Source of the DNA: Kaiparowitsia implicata GSE-PSE-MK54-09C
GTDB taxonomy: Bacteria > Cyanobacteriota > Cyanobacteriia > Elainellales > Elainellaceae
Assembly (NCBI GenBank): GCA_019359435.1
Contig: JAHHHI010000075.1
Coordinates: 1-64,000, forward strand
Direction: 5' to 3'
Length of the DNA stretch: 64,000 nt
In this document: positions 284 to 7,400 of the stretch, in pieces
Numbering within the stretch: position 1 is the first letter of the stretch
How the letters are laid out: each line of letters opens with the position of its first letter
The notes under the pieces: generated by a model
Told to the model about the DNA's origin: nothing
Database searches by the model: none
The model's input: only the letters and a program-made list of their open reading frames with translations
Translations under genes and position numbers: made by a program

Positions 284-1489
284 TTATTTCGGCAGATTGT
301 ACTGTCCGACAATGCGCTTCGCAAATTCAGGGATATGTTGCGCCAGCTTATTGGGATAGTTGCGCTTCACATATAAATAGTTGCGGGTGAAGTGAGAATC
401 GATGGAAAAGCGGGCGTATTCCAAACCCTTGGGGCCAATTTTTTCGATGACTACACCCATCAGCTTTGCCGCCCACATCGGCAGCGTCACGCCCTTATCA
501 TATGCAGGGATGCTCTGTTGAACTGCATTGTGGCGATCGCCCTGCGACATCACCGGCTGCGTTTCTAGCTGATCTTGCACCAGATCCAGCATTTCTTGCC
601 CCGTCTCGTTTCGCACCACGAGCCATTGCCAGCCAAACGGAGCCCCCATATAGCCCACCACCAGATCGGCTAAGGAATTGACATAGTCAAAACAGCTCAT
701 ACAGGAAGGTGCAAACACATTCTTGAGCTGGTTTGTCTTGAGCCCAAAAAAGGGCACGGTTTCTGTCGAGCCGTCTTCGTGCTTAAAGTGAACGCGAAAA
801 TCCTGCATGAACTCGTAATACACCACCGTCTCGGGCGATCGGCTGGTGGTATCGAGGAATGTTTGAAGACCAGCGCGGGTCACATTATCCACACAGGGGG
901 TGCCCAGCACATAGAGCTTTTCTAGCCCCAGTTGGGCTTGCACCGCGCGCAACGCCTGAATCTGACAGCCCACGCCGATCACCAGCAGGCGTTTCATGCC
1001 AGATTGCTCAATTTGCTCTAGCACTGATAAATTGGGCGACAAGGTGGGCTTGTTGACCCGTGCTGCCAAAATGTCTTCGGGCGTTCTCGCGATCACGGGC
1101 ATCGGCTGAAAGCGATCGCTCTCCGTATTCTGCACGCAGACGACGCCTTCCACGAGCCCCCGATTCAGCATCTCAATGGCAATACTGCTGACAATACCCG
1201 TCCACTGTGCCCCTTCAATCGGCTGGGTTTTGCGGGCGGCCATCATCGTGTTGTGGACGCCGAAGTAGAGATCATCGTCCCGCTCTAAATCACGACTGCG
1301 GCCATGGGCCTGTTCTTCCAATTCAGGAATCTGCTGGTTGATGAATGCACAGGCTTCTTTGACATAGTGCACATAGTAGGTATCGCAGAGCCCACATTCA
1401 CTGCATAGCTCTTTGGCAGGGCGACGACTTCCAGGCTTGAGGGCTTTGGCTTTTTTATGCTGAGGCGAATTGGGAGAAACAGCAGTCAT
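284..1489 (-). CDS. bciB: Ferredoxin-dependent 3,8-divinyl (proto)chlorophyllide a 8-vinyl reductase (BciB/Slr1923 type)
   Basis: This 401-residue protein belongs to the FrhB/F420-hydrogenase beta-subunit superfamily. It has the N-terminal CSECGLC motif (Cys29, 32, 35) and a later APSCMSCFDY motif that together supply iron-sulfur ligands. Length and sequence match cyanobacterial Slr1923-type proteins. These reduce the 8-vinyl group of divinyl chlorophyllide with reduced ferredoxin, a late step of chlorophyll a synthesis. The plant paralogue, 7-hydroxymethyl chlorophyll a reductase, is a relative, but the vinyl reductase role is the established one in cyanobacteria. The gene appears monocistronic, with its start ATG at 1489 and no close partner in the same direction. 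Confidence 0.85.
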   Translation of the reverse strand: MTAVSPNSPQHKKAKALKPGSRRPAKELCSECGLCDTYYVHYVKEACAFINQQIPELEEQAHGRSRDLERDDDLYFGVHNTMMAARKTQPIEGAQWTGIVSSIAIEMLNRGLVEGVVCVQNTESDRFQPMPVIARTPEDILAARVNKPTLSPNLSVLEQIEQSGMKRLLVIGVGCQIQALRAVQAQLGLEKLYVLGTPCVDNVTRAGLQTFLDTTSRSPETVVYYEFMQDFRVHFKHEDGSTETVPFFGLKTNQLKNVFAPSCMSCFDYVNSLADLVVGYMGAPFGWQWLVVRNETGQEMLDLVQDQLETQPVMSQGDRHNAVQQSIPAYDKGVTLPMWAAKLMGVVIEKIGPKGLEYARFSIDSHFTRNYLYVKRNYPNKLAQHIPEFAKRIVGQYNLPK

Positions 1490-1571: not shown

Positions 1572-2507
1572 CTAGCCTAAATCCAGGCTGATCAAAATTT
1601 GATTAATGGCGGATACATAGGCATGGGCAAACGAATGCATCATATTGATGTGGGCTGCACTGGTTTCAAAATAGCGGCGATCGCACATCACCGTAATCAT
1701 TGCCTCCGCCTCTGCCGCTGCACCTCCCACTGTTGGCGGCACGCTAAAATCCACCATTCGCCGGACGGGAAGCTCTAGACACGCATCTACACACCGATCA
1801 ATGGTGCGATAGATCGCGTCGCAGGGGGTTGCGCCAGCCGCCGACTCCTGAAAACAGCCGCCCTCGCGAGTGCCAAGGCACACGGTCGCCGTACATTCCA
1901 GCCCACTGTGCACTTCTAGCTCACGTAGGTGAAACATCGGCTGAGCCGGGGGCGATACCTGGAGCGATACCTGGGGCAACTCTTGCTGACTCATCTCGCG
2001 AATAAAAGCCGACAGCCCATAAATGGCAATGCTCGATAAAATTGCCTCATTTTCGTCGGCCAAGAGGGTCTCAGTTGAGCGATTAAAGTACCCATATTTC
2101 TGAACCGTTTGACGACCTCGCGCGCTTTCGGTGAACTGATAGGCTTCCCAGGTCACAATCACATCCAACGGGGCCACAAACGCACAAGCCAACCGCAAGG
2201 CATCGTTGAAATTTAACTTAAACTGTCCGGCAAACTCCAGCAGATCCTCTGTAATCGGTAGCGTATGGATCTTAGACTCCATCACTTGGTAAATCGCTTG
2301 GCACTCGGCACTGCCTCCCAATTGATACACGCGCCAAAAGGTAAACGCTTGGTCAAAATCGGACTGCAGCATATACCACCGAACCGACAGAGCCGCTAAT
2401 CGTCGAAGCCATTCTGTGCAATAGTCCGAGTTGTCTGGGTTACGCGACAAGGCGTTTTGAAAGATGTTTGGCGTAATTAAGGCGGAGATGCAAGAGCGCT
2501 GACTCAT
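1572..2507 (-). CDS. Degenerate PIN-like domain fused to a LeuA-type allosteric (regulatory) domain
   Basis: This is a 311-residue protein from the ATG at 2507; a GTG at 2531 would add eight residues. Residues about 5-125 read as a PIN fold: an N-terminal strand and turn (LITPNIF where VapC proteins have DTNVL), helices, then NFNDALRLACA with Asp102 and VIVTWEAYQF where PIN proteins have VTRDKDF. The first acidic residue is Thr12 and the last is Gln124, so RNase activity is doubtful. Residues 191-311 match the C-terminal leucine-sensing dimer domain of 2-isopropylmalate synthase: the VHSG and TATV strands, AAGATPCDAIYRTIDR, and the final helix AHAYVSAINQIL. No LeuA catalytic barrel is present. 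It lies 86 bp downstream of an RHH gene in a toxin-antitoxin-like order. Role inferred: a metabolite-responsive partner of the RHH protein, not a classical toxin. Confidence 0.75.
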   Translation of the reverse strand: MSQRSCISALITPNIFQNALSRNPDNSDYCTEWLRRLAALSVRWYMLQSDFDQAFTFWRVYQLGGSAECQAIYQVMESKIHTLPITEDLLEFAGQFKLNFNDALRLACAFVAPLDVIVTWEAYQFTESARGRQTVQKYGYFNRSTETLLADENEAILSSIAIYGLSAFIREMSQQELPQVSLQVSPPAQPMFHLRELEVHSGLECTATVCLGTREGGCFQESAAGATPCDAIYRTIDRCVDACLELPVRRMVDFSVPPTVGGAAAEAEAMITVMCDRRYFETSAAHINMMHSFAHAYVSAINQILISLDLG

Positions 2508-2593
2508 AGAGAAGAGAGGTGAATAAACCACGGGGGAGCAACCTCTTCGTTCGCCACTGTTTGATATGAACCAGCACCCAGACAGGAGTGCAG

Positions 2594-3019
2594 TTATCGC
2601 TCTGACCCGGCATTGGTTGCAGATTGCGCAGAGGGAGCGGTGTCATCGGCAATTTTCTCCATCTGCGCCAACCGGGTTTCTAGCTTTTCTAGCTTGTTGA
2701 CCAGATAACGCCCCAACTCCTCAAACGATGAGGTAGGCGCTGGTGCCGGAGGTGCCAACAGGGCATATAGCGGCGTGGGGGATGGAGAAGGGTAGGTACT
2801 GCGCTCGTGCTTCAGATCTTGAACTTGCTGGGCCAACGTGCTCACCAGCTTGTCGAGATCTGAGGTGGATGAAGAAAGCTTGCCAGGCTCTTGCGGCTCT
2901 TGCCGCAGTCGTCGGCATACCAGCTCAGTCAACGAAATACCGTCGTGATCAGCCTGGTCTCGGAGGGATTCAATCAGATCTTCGGGCAGTCGAAAGCTGA
3001 TCAACTTCTTATTACTCAT
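2594..3019 (-). CDS. Ribbon-helix-helix (CopG/Arc-type) DNA-binding protein with coiled C-terminus
   Basis: This 141-residue protein starts at the ATG at 3019, which directly precedes the conserved RHH core MSNKKLISFRLPEDLIESL; an upstream in-frame start would add an unconserved tail. The beta strand KLISFRLPE followed by two helices (DLIESLRDQADHDG, SLTELVCRRLRQ) is a standard RHH operator-binding domain. The middle (about 55-105) is polar and proline-rich. The region 105-135 has heptad-like leucines (LGRYLVNKLEKLETRLAQMEKI) and probably oligomerises or binds the partner. It is the first gene of a two-gene unit with the PIN/LeuA fusion, as an antitoxin or autorepressor would be. The operator is likely within 3020-3140. 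Confidence 0.75.
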   Translation of the reverse strand: MSNKKLISFRLPEDLIESLRDQADHDGISLTELVCRRLRQEPQEPGKLSSSTSDLDKLVSTLAQQVQDLKHERSTYPSPSPTPLYALLAPPAPAPTSSFEELGRYLVNKLEKLETRLAQMEKIADDTAPSAQSATNAGSER

Positions 3020-3446
3020 AACACCACGCCGTTGTCGTCTCACGTTAGGGACATGTGCTGAATTCCACTTGCACATGACTACCTAATGTATATCAAAAGT
3101 CTTTCATCTGTCTACTCCTTTACAGAAACTTGTCATATATTTGATAGTCCTTGTTTGTAAGATAACAAATCTTTTTGGTTTTGCAAGCAAGAACTCTGCA
3201 TGTATAGAATTCCGTAACCCCCAGCAAGAGAAACCTGTGCAGCACATGACAGTTGAGGGTAGAAGTGGCGCGAAGAGGGTCGAGGCCAGTCCGAAATCCG
3301 CATGTATCTATTTTGTATATACGGTTTTGTATTACATCTCATTTCTTTTTTGAATTAATTGTGATACAAGATGGATATGCCTGTGCTGTGAGAGATGACG
3401 GTTCTATGTGTGCTCGCCCTCGCCTCTATTGTGGAGAGTTAATCCA
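3020..3446. promoter_or_regulatory. Divergent AT-rich promoter region between the RHH pair and a membrane-protein gene
   Basis: This spacer of about 430 bp between divergent genes is clearly AT-richer than its surroundings. It contains TATCAAA near 3088 and its complement TTTGATA near 3138, a spaced inverted repeat that could form part of an RHH operator. This is weak evidence. On the plus strand, GGAGAG at 3433-3438 is the ribosome-binding site for the ATG at 3447. No terminator-like hairpin was seen. Confidence 0.35.
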
Positions 3447-4379
3447 ATGCCACGCCCTAACCCTAATCACCCCCCGCATGATCTGACGATGATCGCCTGG
3501 CTGGCTGCCATCTATACATTGGCGGTCTCTGGAATTAGCCTAGCGCTCGTGATTAATCACTACATTGGGCAAGAAATCGCAAACCTAGAGAACTTCCTGG
3601 AATTACTTAATGATCATAAGCAGGACGGTCTGTATGACGAGTGTATTAGTGCGGCAGATCGATTTCTGGAATTTCCCAACTCTGTGCAGAATGGGCATGG
3701 CCGGGTACTGACTGCACGGGCTCAGTGTTTGCAACGGCAACAGGCTGAACAGCGCCAGCAGGAAGCAGCGCAGATTGACCAAGCTTGGCCTGAACTGATG
3801 CAGATCGTCAATAACGGTGAATTAGAACGGGCGATCGTCCGGATGGATGCGCTGGCCCCTAATCGCCACCACCAAACTTTCACCGAATACCGCGATCGCC
3901 TGTGTGAGCAGATTGCCGGGTTAGCCCAGCGGGAATATTGGCAAGATTCGCCACGGTATCTTAACGATGCAACCTATCTGGCGAATGCTGTCTCACAGTA
4001 TTGCAGCAGCTACTCATCTGTCATACAACTGAAGGGGCGGTGGTCGTTAGAGTTTGAGACGAATCAGCGACTCCTAGAGGCTGCGGATCAGGCTCTTAGA
4101 GGGCGCAATCCCAATGCTGCGGCTGATGCTCTGGCGCGAATCTCGGATCACCCCTACTGGCAGACGCAGGCAAGGCCATATCTGGCGTATCAGCGGGCTG
4201 TAGAGTATCTGCAAACTCGTGAGTTTCAAAATGCGATCGCCCATGCCCAAGGCCTACCAGACGAATATCCCTGGCACGACCGCAAAGTTCAACTCATCAG
4301 CGAAGCAACCAGTCAGGTGCGGAGCCGCACCCTCTGCGAGCGGGTGACGTTTGGGGCATGGCCGGGCTGTTATGACTAA
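3447..4379 (+). CDS. Single-pass membrane-anchored protein of unknown function
   Basis: This 310-residue protein starts at the ATG at 3447, eight bases after GGAGAG; an earlier in-frame start lacks such a site. A short Pro/Asn-rich N-terminus is followed by one hydrophobic helix (IAWLAAIYTLAVSGISLALVI, about residues 15-35). The rest is a long soluble domain rich in Gln, Glu, Ala and Arg, with several repeated alpha-hairpin-like stretches (for example RLLEAADQALRGRNPNAAADALARI). It looks like an irregular tetratricopeptide-type solenoid of the kind many cyanobacterial proteins carry after a membrane anchor. No catalytic motif was recognised. It runs divergently from the RHH pair and converges on cobN. 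Function unknown. Confidence 0.7.
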   Translation: MPRPNPNHPPHDLTMIAWLAAIYTLAVSGISLALVINHYIGQEIANLENFLELLNDHKQDGLYDECISAADRFLEFPNSVQNGHGRVLTARAQCLQRQQAEQRQQEAAQIDQAWPELMQIVNNGELERAIVRMDALAPNRHHQTFTEYRDRLCEQIAGLAQREYWQDSPRYLNDATYLANAVSQYCSSYSSVIQLKGRWSLEFETNQRLLEAADQALRGRNPNAAADALARISDHPYWQTQARPYLAYQRAVEYLQTREFQNAIAHAQGLPDEYPWHDRKVQLISEATSQVRSRTLCERVTFGAWPGCYD

Positions 4380-4406
4380 GGCGCTTTCTTAAAAACGTCA
4401 GTTCGA

Positions 4407-7400
4407 CTAGGGTTCTGCCACGGCGATCGGGCGCTGTTCGATGGTATGGTCTGCTTCTAGGAAGAGATCTTGGAGTTGGTTCAACAATGCGGCGGGGGCT
4501 GTGGCCCAGAGGCCGCGCTGATGCGCTTCGAGCAGGCGCTCGGCCATATCGCGCAGGGCCCAGGGGTTGGCCTGCTGCAAAAATGCCTGCACCGTGGGGT
4601 CGAGCAGATAGGCCTGGGTGACCCCTTCATACATAAAGTCGGCTACGCAGTGGGTGGTGGCGTCATAGGCAAAGAGGAAATCGAGGGTGGCCGCCATCTC
4701 AAACGCGCCCTTATAGCCGTGGCGCATGGCTCCGGCGATCCACTTGGGGTTCACCACGCGCGAGCGGTAGACCCGCGCAAGTTCGTCTTGGAGCGATCGC
4801 ACCTTGGGCTGAGCGGTCTGGGCATTGTCGCCAAAGTAAAGCTGGGGTGCTTGACCAGCAGAGGCTTTGACTGCCGCTGCCATGCCGCCCTGAAACTGGT
4901 AGTAATCATCAGAATCTAGCAAATCATGCTCGCGGTTATCTTGGTTTTGCAGCACAATCTGCATGTGCGCTAGCCGCTGATCAAACGCTTCAGGCGCGGG
5001 CTGACCCTCGGCGTTGCGGCCATAGGCGTAGGCGCTCCAGTTGATATACGCCTGCGCCAGATCTGCCTCGGTGTCCCATTGTTGAGATTCGATGAGCCCT
5101 TGCAGCCCTGCGCCATAGGCACCCGGCTTCGAGCCAAAGATGCGGTAGAGCGATCGCCGGGCGGCATCCTCCATCGCTAGCCCCTGCGCCTGCCACTGAG
5201 CCTGCTCTTGGGCGGCCCGCGACGCTAAGGGATTTTGCTCCGGGGGTTCATCCAATGCCGCCACTGCGGCCACGGCACTGTCAAACAAGTCAATCAAATT
5301 GGGAAAGGCATCGCGGAAAAACCCCGAAATCCGCAGCGTCACATCCACTCGCGGGCGTCCTACAATCGACAGCGGCAGAATTTCAAAATCCACCACCCGC
5401 CGCGACACGCCATCCCACACGGGGCGCACTCCCAGCAGCGCCAGAGCTTCGGCTATATCGTCGCCGCCGGTTCGCATCATAGAAGTGCCCCACACCGACA
5501 GCCCCAGGGTTGTGGGATACTCGCCCTGCTCTTGGGTATAGCGCTCTACGAGAACTTCCGCCGCCTTGCGCCCCAAGTCCCACGCAACTTCGGTGGGAAT
5601 GGCGCGAATGTCTACCGAGTAGAAATTGCGTCCCGTTGGCAACACGTCGGGCCGTCCCCGAGTGGGCGCACCCGACGCCCCGCTGGGCACATAGCCGCCG
5701 TTTAGCCCGTGGAGCAGGTTAGCAAGCTCTTGATCGGTTTGGCGCAGTGCAGGCAGGAGGCGATCGCCCACCCACACCAACTCTTGCTGGGTGGCGGGGC
5801 CAATCTCTGGCCCATCCGCTACCGGATTGCTAGGCTGCATCACGTGCTCCATCAGGGCGGCGGCGTAGTGTTCTAGCACTTCTATCACATCCCCCATAAT
5901 GCGGCAGGGCTGAAGCCAGCCGTGCAGGTGGGGATACGCGGCTGGGTCAAACGCAGCGCCCAACTCTGCCGTTAGTGGATCCAGATCCAACTGCCAATCT
6001 TGGGCGATCGCCCGGGTGAGTCCGAGTCGCTGAGGGCTGGGGTTGCGGGCGATCGCCACGAGCAGATCTCGCAGTTGCCGCCCCGCCGGGCAGCGCCCCA
6101 GAATATGCAACCCATCGCGAATCTGCGCCTCCTTTAGCTCACACAGATAGCCATCTGCCTGCTGCAACACTTGACTAAGGCTTTCGCCATCCGGCAGCAG
6201 ATCGGTCAGCCCCAGGTCGTGCAGCAAGCTCTCCTGCGAAATCAGGGCCGACAGCCGCTCAGTGACCGCGGGCAGGCGCACTGGGTCGAGGGTTTGCGCC
6301 TCGTAATATTCATCAATCAGTCCTTCGAGCTGGTGCAAGTTGCCATAGAGTTCGGCGCGGGTCATGGGCGGCGTCAGGTGGTCGAGAATCACCGCTTGAG
6401 CGCGGCGCTTTGCCTGAGCGCCTTCCCCCGGATCGTTGACAATAAAGGGATAAAAATGGGGCAGTGGCCCCAGCGCCACCTCGGGATAGCAGGTGTCTGA
6501 CAGCGCCACACTCTTCCCCGGCAACCATTCCAAATTGCCATGCTTGCCCACATGCACCACCGCCTGCGCCCCAAACTGCCGCCGCACCCAGCAATAGAAC
6601 GCGAGATAGTCGTGCGTTGGCGCTAAGTCAGGCGCATGGTAGTTAAGCGTGGGGTCGCGGTCGTAGCCCCGCGCTGGTTGAATGCCCACAAACACATGCT
6701 CCAACTGAATGCCGGGAATAGAGAATGCGTGCGCAGGCGGGTTGCCCCAGCGAGCCTCGATGCCCTGCCGCACCGCAGCGGGAAGCTGCTGCCAAAAGTC
6801 GTGGTAGTCCCCTGCGGATAGTGTCTGATGTGCAGGACGAATCGCGCTTTCAGGGTCATTGGTGATGCCCGCCGTGAGGCGCTGCATCAGCGCCAAATCG
6901 GTGCTCGGAATCTCGGGAACAGCATAGCCCGCCTGCTGCAAGGCCATGAGCAGGGCAATGCAGCTTTGGGGTGTATCTAGCCCCACCCCATTCGCAAGGC
7001 GACCATCCCGGTTGGGGTAGTTTGCCAGAACTAGCGCCACGCGACGCTGGGACGGCGGGGTGCGGCGCAGGGCCACCCAGTTGGCGGCAAGGTCTGCGAC
7101 AAATTGCAGGCGATCGCCCATCGGCTCATACACCACCACGTCGGTTTGCAGGTGCTCATTCTGAGTCTGCACCGCCTTAAAGGACACCGCACGGGTGATG
7201 ATTCGTCCATCTACCTCCGGCAGCGCTACGTTCATCGCCATGTCTCGCGGCGTGAGCCCCTGGGTGCTCGCGGCCCATTGCTCCTGGGTGCCGCCGCTGC
7301 AAATCACCTGAAACACTGGAACGTTGAGGGTTTCCCATAGATCAACGTGAGGCGCGTCGGCATCTAAGCTGGCAAGGGCAAAGCTGGTGGTGTTGAGTAG

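Follow-up and report, generated by a model that had tools for sequence, protein, structure and literature searches.

The window analysed here is a 64,000-nucleotide stretch of contig JAHHHI010000075.1 from the cyanobacterium Kaiparowitsia implicata GSE-PSE-MK54-09C. Its left end carries a gene for a ribbon-helix-helix (RHH) protein, followed at a distance of 86 bp by one for a protein (PIN-LeuA) that joins a PIN-fold half to a LeuA_dimer domain, while a gene for a TPR-like membrane protein diverges from the pair (Table 1). An earlier reading of this DNA from the letters alone (the sequence-only reading) had given the coordinates and frames of both paired genes correctly, as re-reading the window confirmed. 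The other side of the pair is adjoined by a gene (284-1489, minus strand) for a FrhB_FdhB-type coenzyme F420 hydrogenase beta-subunit family protein; the relatives that were read do not keep this gene next to the pair.

Table 1. Positions in the window of the paired genes, the domains of PIN-LeuA, the candidate operator sites and the divergent gene.
Feature	Position	Strand	Basis and remarks
PIN-LeuA_dimer fusion gene	1572..2507	-	311 aa from ATG; alternative GTG at 2531 gives 319 aa
LeuA_dimer domain without a catalytic barrel (residues 190-309)	1581..1940	-	Pfam PF08502 and fold match
PIN-fold half, residues 5-178	1974..2495	-	AlphaFold2 pLDDT 87.5; VapC matches; profile link to PIN_3 proteins
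RHH (ribbon-helix-helix) protein gene	2594..3019	-	141 aa; weak Arc-like repressor, VapB and CopG_antitoxin matches
Single putative half-site TGTATATC	3088..3095	+	Repeat consensus match only
Putative operator, two 11-bp repeats TGTATCTATTT-TGTATATACGG	3303..3324	+	Repeat analysis of the RHH upstream region
Divergent membrane-anchored TPR-like protein gene	3447..4379	+	310 aa

Of 390 genomes sampled from the class, 18 have full-length relatives of the window protein (type A), as does Zarconia; the copy at locus L075 is divergent. A contig scan with the window protein alone gave no match, and the relatives were recovered with a family profile; those that can be named belong to Leptolyngbyaceae MAGs, Leptolyngbya strains, Phormidium tenue FACHB-886 and Zarconia navalis LEGE 11467. 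When the RHH protein served as the query, a second group (type B) came to light in nine genomes, with an identical order of RHH, PIN and LeuA_dimer (loci L122, L124, L125, L127-L130, L132 and L133). An RHH gene lies directly upstream of PIN-LeuA at all 19 type-A and all nine type-B loci, so that both the VapBC-like order proposed earlier (RHH first, PIN second) and the conservation of the pair hold across the family, and the genes downstream of the type-A pair differ between families. An unrooted tree has types A and B together on the same side of a branch supported at 93/90, and all matches of a profile scan across 84,980 species of bacteria and archaea lay in cyanobacteria.

Both the PIN and the LeuA halves are under purifying selection; whole-gene pairs in which dS is not saturated give dN of 0.06-0.16 against dS of 0.6-2.1. 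This constraint rules out a decaying pseudogene for the family, despite single broken copies. Frameshifted copies of PIN-LeuA are present at L074 and L130, and at L073 (5128-6505) the C-terminus is cut by a transposase-like ORF, as judged by eye. A phage origin was rejected, as viral contigs yielded zero relatives of the family and the fold comparison gave no viral protein that clearly matched over its full length; spread by plasmids was likewise rejected, the plasmid search having returned a LeuA-type match alone, as was a role as a defence system, for which PADLOC gave no match of note.

The RHH protein has its ribbon-helix-helix at the N-terminus and a coiled-coil-like C-terminal part with a conserved TPLYALL stretch, and profile searches give weak yet consistent matches to CopG_antitoxin, VapB and Arc-like repressors. 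It is present as a single copy in its own genome, and 17 of its 18 best homologues (E<1e-18) adjoin a PIN-LeuA gene. RHH relatives that have no such neighbour occur at L123 (3026-3313), L126, L131 and L134-L137, and those at L123 and L126 have a common downstream gene of the MNAAEQA... family.

Searched by itself against Pfam, the window protein has no PIN profile match. However, four PIN-LeuA relatives reach the PIN_3 profile weakly, and a profile of the N-terminal halves of the family retrieves ordinary PIN proteins of 140-155 aa (E 1e-11 to 1e-8), which Pfam assigns to PIN_3. An AlphaFold2 model of type A, built from 18 family members and zero ordinary PIN sequences, resembles VapC4 of P. 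horikoshii over residues 4-180 (Z 11.0, VIA-align) as well as Klebsiella, Shigella and other VapC proteins, and contains an inserted beta-hairpin at residues 140-164. The type-B model, which is good in the PIN half only, matches VapC there with Z 13.7. Sequence searches of the PDB gave nothing relevant for the type-A query and profile, and a single weak match to a citramalate synthase (LiCMS, E 0.77) for type B. Taken together, the PIN_3 profile link and the VapC-matching model indicate that the N-terminal half of the window protein is a PIN fold, which substantiates the PIN-like domain claimed earlier.

The catalytic positions of this fold were read from an alignment of 15 type-A and eight type-B members with canonical PIN_3 relatives. 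In type A, acid 1 (the strand-1 Asp) is replaced by threonine in all 15 proteins (Thr12), and the acid 2 site of VapC, placed at position 53 by the helix start in the AlphaFold2 model, is non-acidic, and most canonical relatives have Asn there. Acid 3 is kept as Asp102 in 14 of 15 (Asn in L076), and acid 4 as Glu121 in all 15, within TWE where the canonical proteins have TRD. Two more canonical Asp residues are replaced, by Asn18 (15/15) and Asn99 (14/15). Asn14, Gln17, Asp50, Arg105 and Thr119 are invariant, and the invariant polar cluster of type A comprises T12, N14, Q17, N18, D50, R105, T119 and E121. Type B retains acid 1 (Asp in 8/8), but acids 3 and 4 are gone from every member (0/8 each), so that neither type has the full set of conserved acidic catalytic residues of the VapBC PIN domain. 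The sequence-only reading had correctly recognised the replacement at Thr12 and the retention of Asp102, but its choice of Gln124 as an acid position fails, the alignment pointing to Glu121, and its statement that most acidic catalytic residues are lost was too strong for the window protein, in which the site is altered and acid 1 replaced. At the sequence level, the nuclease site is altered in type A and dismantled in type B, and an RNase toxin function is therefore not expected for the PIN-LeuA protein. The two groups would thus have had the nuclease disarmed at different positions while retaining fold, fusion and partner.

For the C-terminal half, LeuA_dimer (PF08502) scores 47.6-49.8 bits against a cut-off of 24.9, with the Pfam match at residues 173-305 (47.6 bits), and the NCBIfam matches of the window protein are to the C-termini of 2-isopropylmalate synthases (IPMS) only. 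The best fold match of residues 190-309 is 3f6h, the isoleucine-bound regulatory domain of the Leptospira citramalate synthase (LiCMS; Z 16.2, with 2.2 A across 116 residues); against LeuA of M. tuberculosis, Z is about 12. Pfam and NCBIfam gave no DRE-TIM barrel (HMGL-like) match in the window protein, whose N-terminal half is PIN. The claim of a LeuA dimer domain without its barrel (put at 191-311) therefore stands, with PF08502 above its cut-off and a fold Z of 16.2. A chance or false match is ruled out by the cut-off passed, the fold Z of 16 and more than 20 members; the domain is present in 15 of 16 type-A proteins scanned and in all eight of type B. Since two full-length LeuA-type enzymes are encoded elsewhere in the host genome, the barrel-less copy represents an additional use of the domain. 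The sequence-only reading had also named three findings that would tell against it, namely the lack of a PIN fold, a better match of the C-terminal half to another family and the lack of a conserved RHH neighbour; instead, a PIN fold was matched, LeuA_dimer scored best and the neighbour was kept.

VapBC complexes bind operators and autoregulate (PMC4803016), and operator-like repeats upstream, a VapBC trait, have a counterpart here at the sequence level in TGTATATC-type repeats at 11 and 22 bp, which are enriched relative to shuffles and controls. The sequences TGTATATC or GATATACA are present in the RHH upstreams of 15 of 18 type-A loci, against 0.3 expected. The spacing of GTAT-repeats peaks sharply at 11 bp, which occurs in 11 of 18 type-A upstreams (shuffles 0.25) and 4 of 9 type-B upstreams (shuffles 0.07), compared with 1 of 91 control upstreams. 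Type-B upstreams also have them at 22 bp (6/9) and at 9 and 13 bp (3/9 each), these loci not being independent because most come from one genus. In the window, the two repeats of the putative operator double as an imperfect inverted repeat with a 5-bp spacer, and near-perfect inverted forms exist at some loci, such as TTTTGTATATACAATATATATACAAAA at L071; the single half-site overlaps a weak promoter-like site on the minus strand (3085-3114, a consensus match only). Across 18 whole genomes the exact two-repeat pattern has ten matches, seven of them in this intergenic region and three elsewhere with no obvious common theme, a rarity that rules out a global regulon. A longer inverted pattern has zero matches in the window's own genome. 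The repeats would thus be the expected trace of an RHH repressor acting locally on the divergent promoter. In another genome (G326), L177 carries at about position 1519 a perfect TGTATTTCAAA-TGTATTTC repeat just 3' of an ORF resembling a transporter; this place is remote from the pair, and the repeat may be an extra target or due to chance.

Among 60 genomes, the divergent TPR-like protein has its three best matches in the window itself and in two relatives (30-33% identity), each encoded divergently from the pair; matches in the other 57 relatives are weaker, with E of 6e-12 or above. The gene is probably co-regulated with the pair as a second target. What occupies the divergent position depends on the lineage: some have a TPR protein, others a small membrane protein with a Cys motif; among type-B loci, several have the latter and L122 has a TPR-like protein. 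The small divergent membrane proteins at L073 (2875-3246, minus strand) and L070 (5904-6149, plus strand) have a Cys-rich N-terminus, MKCPY...C...EYCRVCGEWRY, and face the pair within one family of cyanobacteria.

We consider the chances about even that the pair is a VapBC-derived toxin-antitoxin module turned into a ligand-responsive transcription switch. It is called VapBC-derived, and not a member of VapBC, because the catalytic residues of that system are not conserved. In such a switch, the RHH protein would bind the TGTATATC-type repeat array (11/22-bp spacing) between its own gene and the divergent membrane-protein gene, as the conserved repeats suggest, and would control both its own operon and the divergent gene. 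By analogy with VapBC, the PIN fold would grip the C-terminal tail of the RHH protein. The LeuA_dimer domain, as its fold implies, would dimerise and form at the interface a pocket that may accommodate a small acid. Occupancy of this pocket would alter the way in which RHH dimers on the repeats are bridged by the PIN-LeuA dimer, a form of ligand-controlled conditional cooperativity in which the disarmed PIN-LeuA dimer would serve as the co-regulator of the RHH protein. More tentatively, and at somewhat less than an even chance, the pair may represent a new class of gene switch, in which a disarmed VapC-like toxin and the allosteric domain of an enzyme together form a ligand-sensing RHH co-regulator in cyanobacteria, its targets being its own operon and a divergent gene for a membrane protein. 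Several features run counter to a switch: Asp102, Glu121 and the invariant polar cluster of type A resemble a working site more closely than they do a bare scaffold, the type-A pocket departs from that of IPMS, L076 has no LeuA half, and the divergent gene varies by lineage.

The pocket bears most directly on ligand sensing. In IPMS and CMS, the leucine carboxylate is held by helix N-termini with the GxGP and G...TD motifs. With the IPMS motifs taken as corresponding, type A retains G225, P228, D230, A231, A296 and Y297, and is changed at three IPMS-invariant positions (G227 to Ser/Thr, G282 lost, D288 to Asn), which makes leucine itself doubtful as the type-A ligand; judged from these residues, leucine is an uncertain ligand for the window protein. 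A branched-chain amino acid or a similar acid may nevertheless tune the PIN-LeuA protein. The changed positions would also fit an RHH autorepressor with a pseudo-PIN corepressor, in which LeuA_dimer is a structural dimeriser only and no ligand is involved. The same is true of L076 (genome G018, 4072-4626, minus strand), a type-A relative of 184 aa with Asn at 102 that has no LeuA half; as the RHH and PIN genes are kept there, the sensor is dispensable in L076. However, type B retains GxGPVDA and G...D of the IPMS pocket, and the LeuA half is constrained as much as the PIN half, so we regard a corepressor without sensing as unlikely.

Asp102, Glu121 and the invariant polar pocket of type A, together with the VapBC gene order and fold, could instead indicate that the PIN half has remained an RNase, now with a changed Thr/Asp/Glu site, whose activity LeuA couples to amino-acid supply and which the RHH protein counteracts as antitoxin. 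Loss of one acid is expected to inactivate a PIN nuclease; here, acid 1 is Thr in all 15 type-A proteins, acids 3 and 4 are gone in type B and L076 has Asn102, making such a ligand-gated toxin quite unlikely. Least probable is a metabolic enzyme resembling the PIN-fold cyclodehydratase RohQ, with feedback regulation through LeuA and transcriptional control by the RHH protein. The RohQ fold matches and the invariant polar cluster of type A speak for it, but the RohQ structures match the models (Z 8.3 for type A, 11.0 for type B) no better than VapC does, the polar cluster of type A is missing in type B, and the RHH partner is constant where biosynthetic neighbours are not.

If the ligand-responsive switch is correct, a toxin-antitoxin pair has become a metabolite-controlled transcription switch through a disarmed toxin and a grafted allosteric domain of amino-acid biosynthesis. 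The roles of degenerate PIN proteins and of LeuA_dimer sensing outside an enzyme would become testable, and types A and B, which lost different acids and kept the partner, the fusion and the repeat type, would offer a natural experiment on the need for the PIN fold. The earlier statement that no described system has this architecture agrees with a search of 5.4 million open-access papers (subscription journals lay outside its scope), in which no description of a PIN-LeuA fusion was found.

Among known systems, VapBC modules with an RHH antitoxin, such as FitAB, have in common with the pair an RHH gene followed by a PIN-fold gene and repeats upstream, and PIN_3-type relatives exist in the same phylum. 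In contrast to VapBC, the acids here are replaced or lost, the C-terminal part of the RHH protein is longer, a LeuA_dimer domain is added to the second protein, and the operator-like repeats also face a divergent gene. The regulatory domain of IPMS and citramalate synthase (PF08502; 3f6h, 3fig) has the same fold (Z 16.2 to LiCMS) and the GxGP-helix and AY-helix motifs, whereas here the DRE-TIM barrel is missing, the type-A pocket is partly changed and the domain is fused to PIN. Lrp, ArgR and MetJ are amino-acid-responsive repressors in which a small molecule controls DNA binding, and MetJ is also an RHH protein. The logic proposed for the pair would be alike; however, its sensor and DNA-binding parts would reside on two proteins, with the sensor carried by the VapC-like one.
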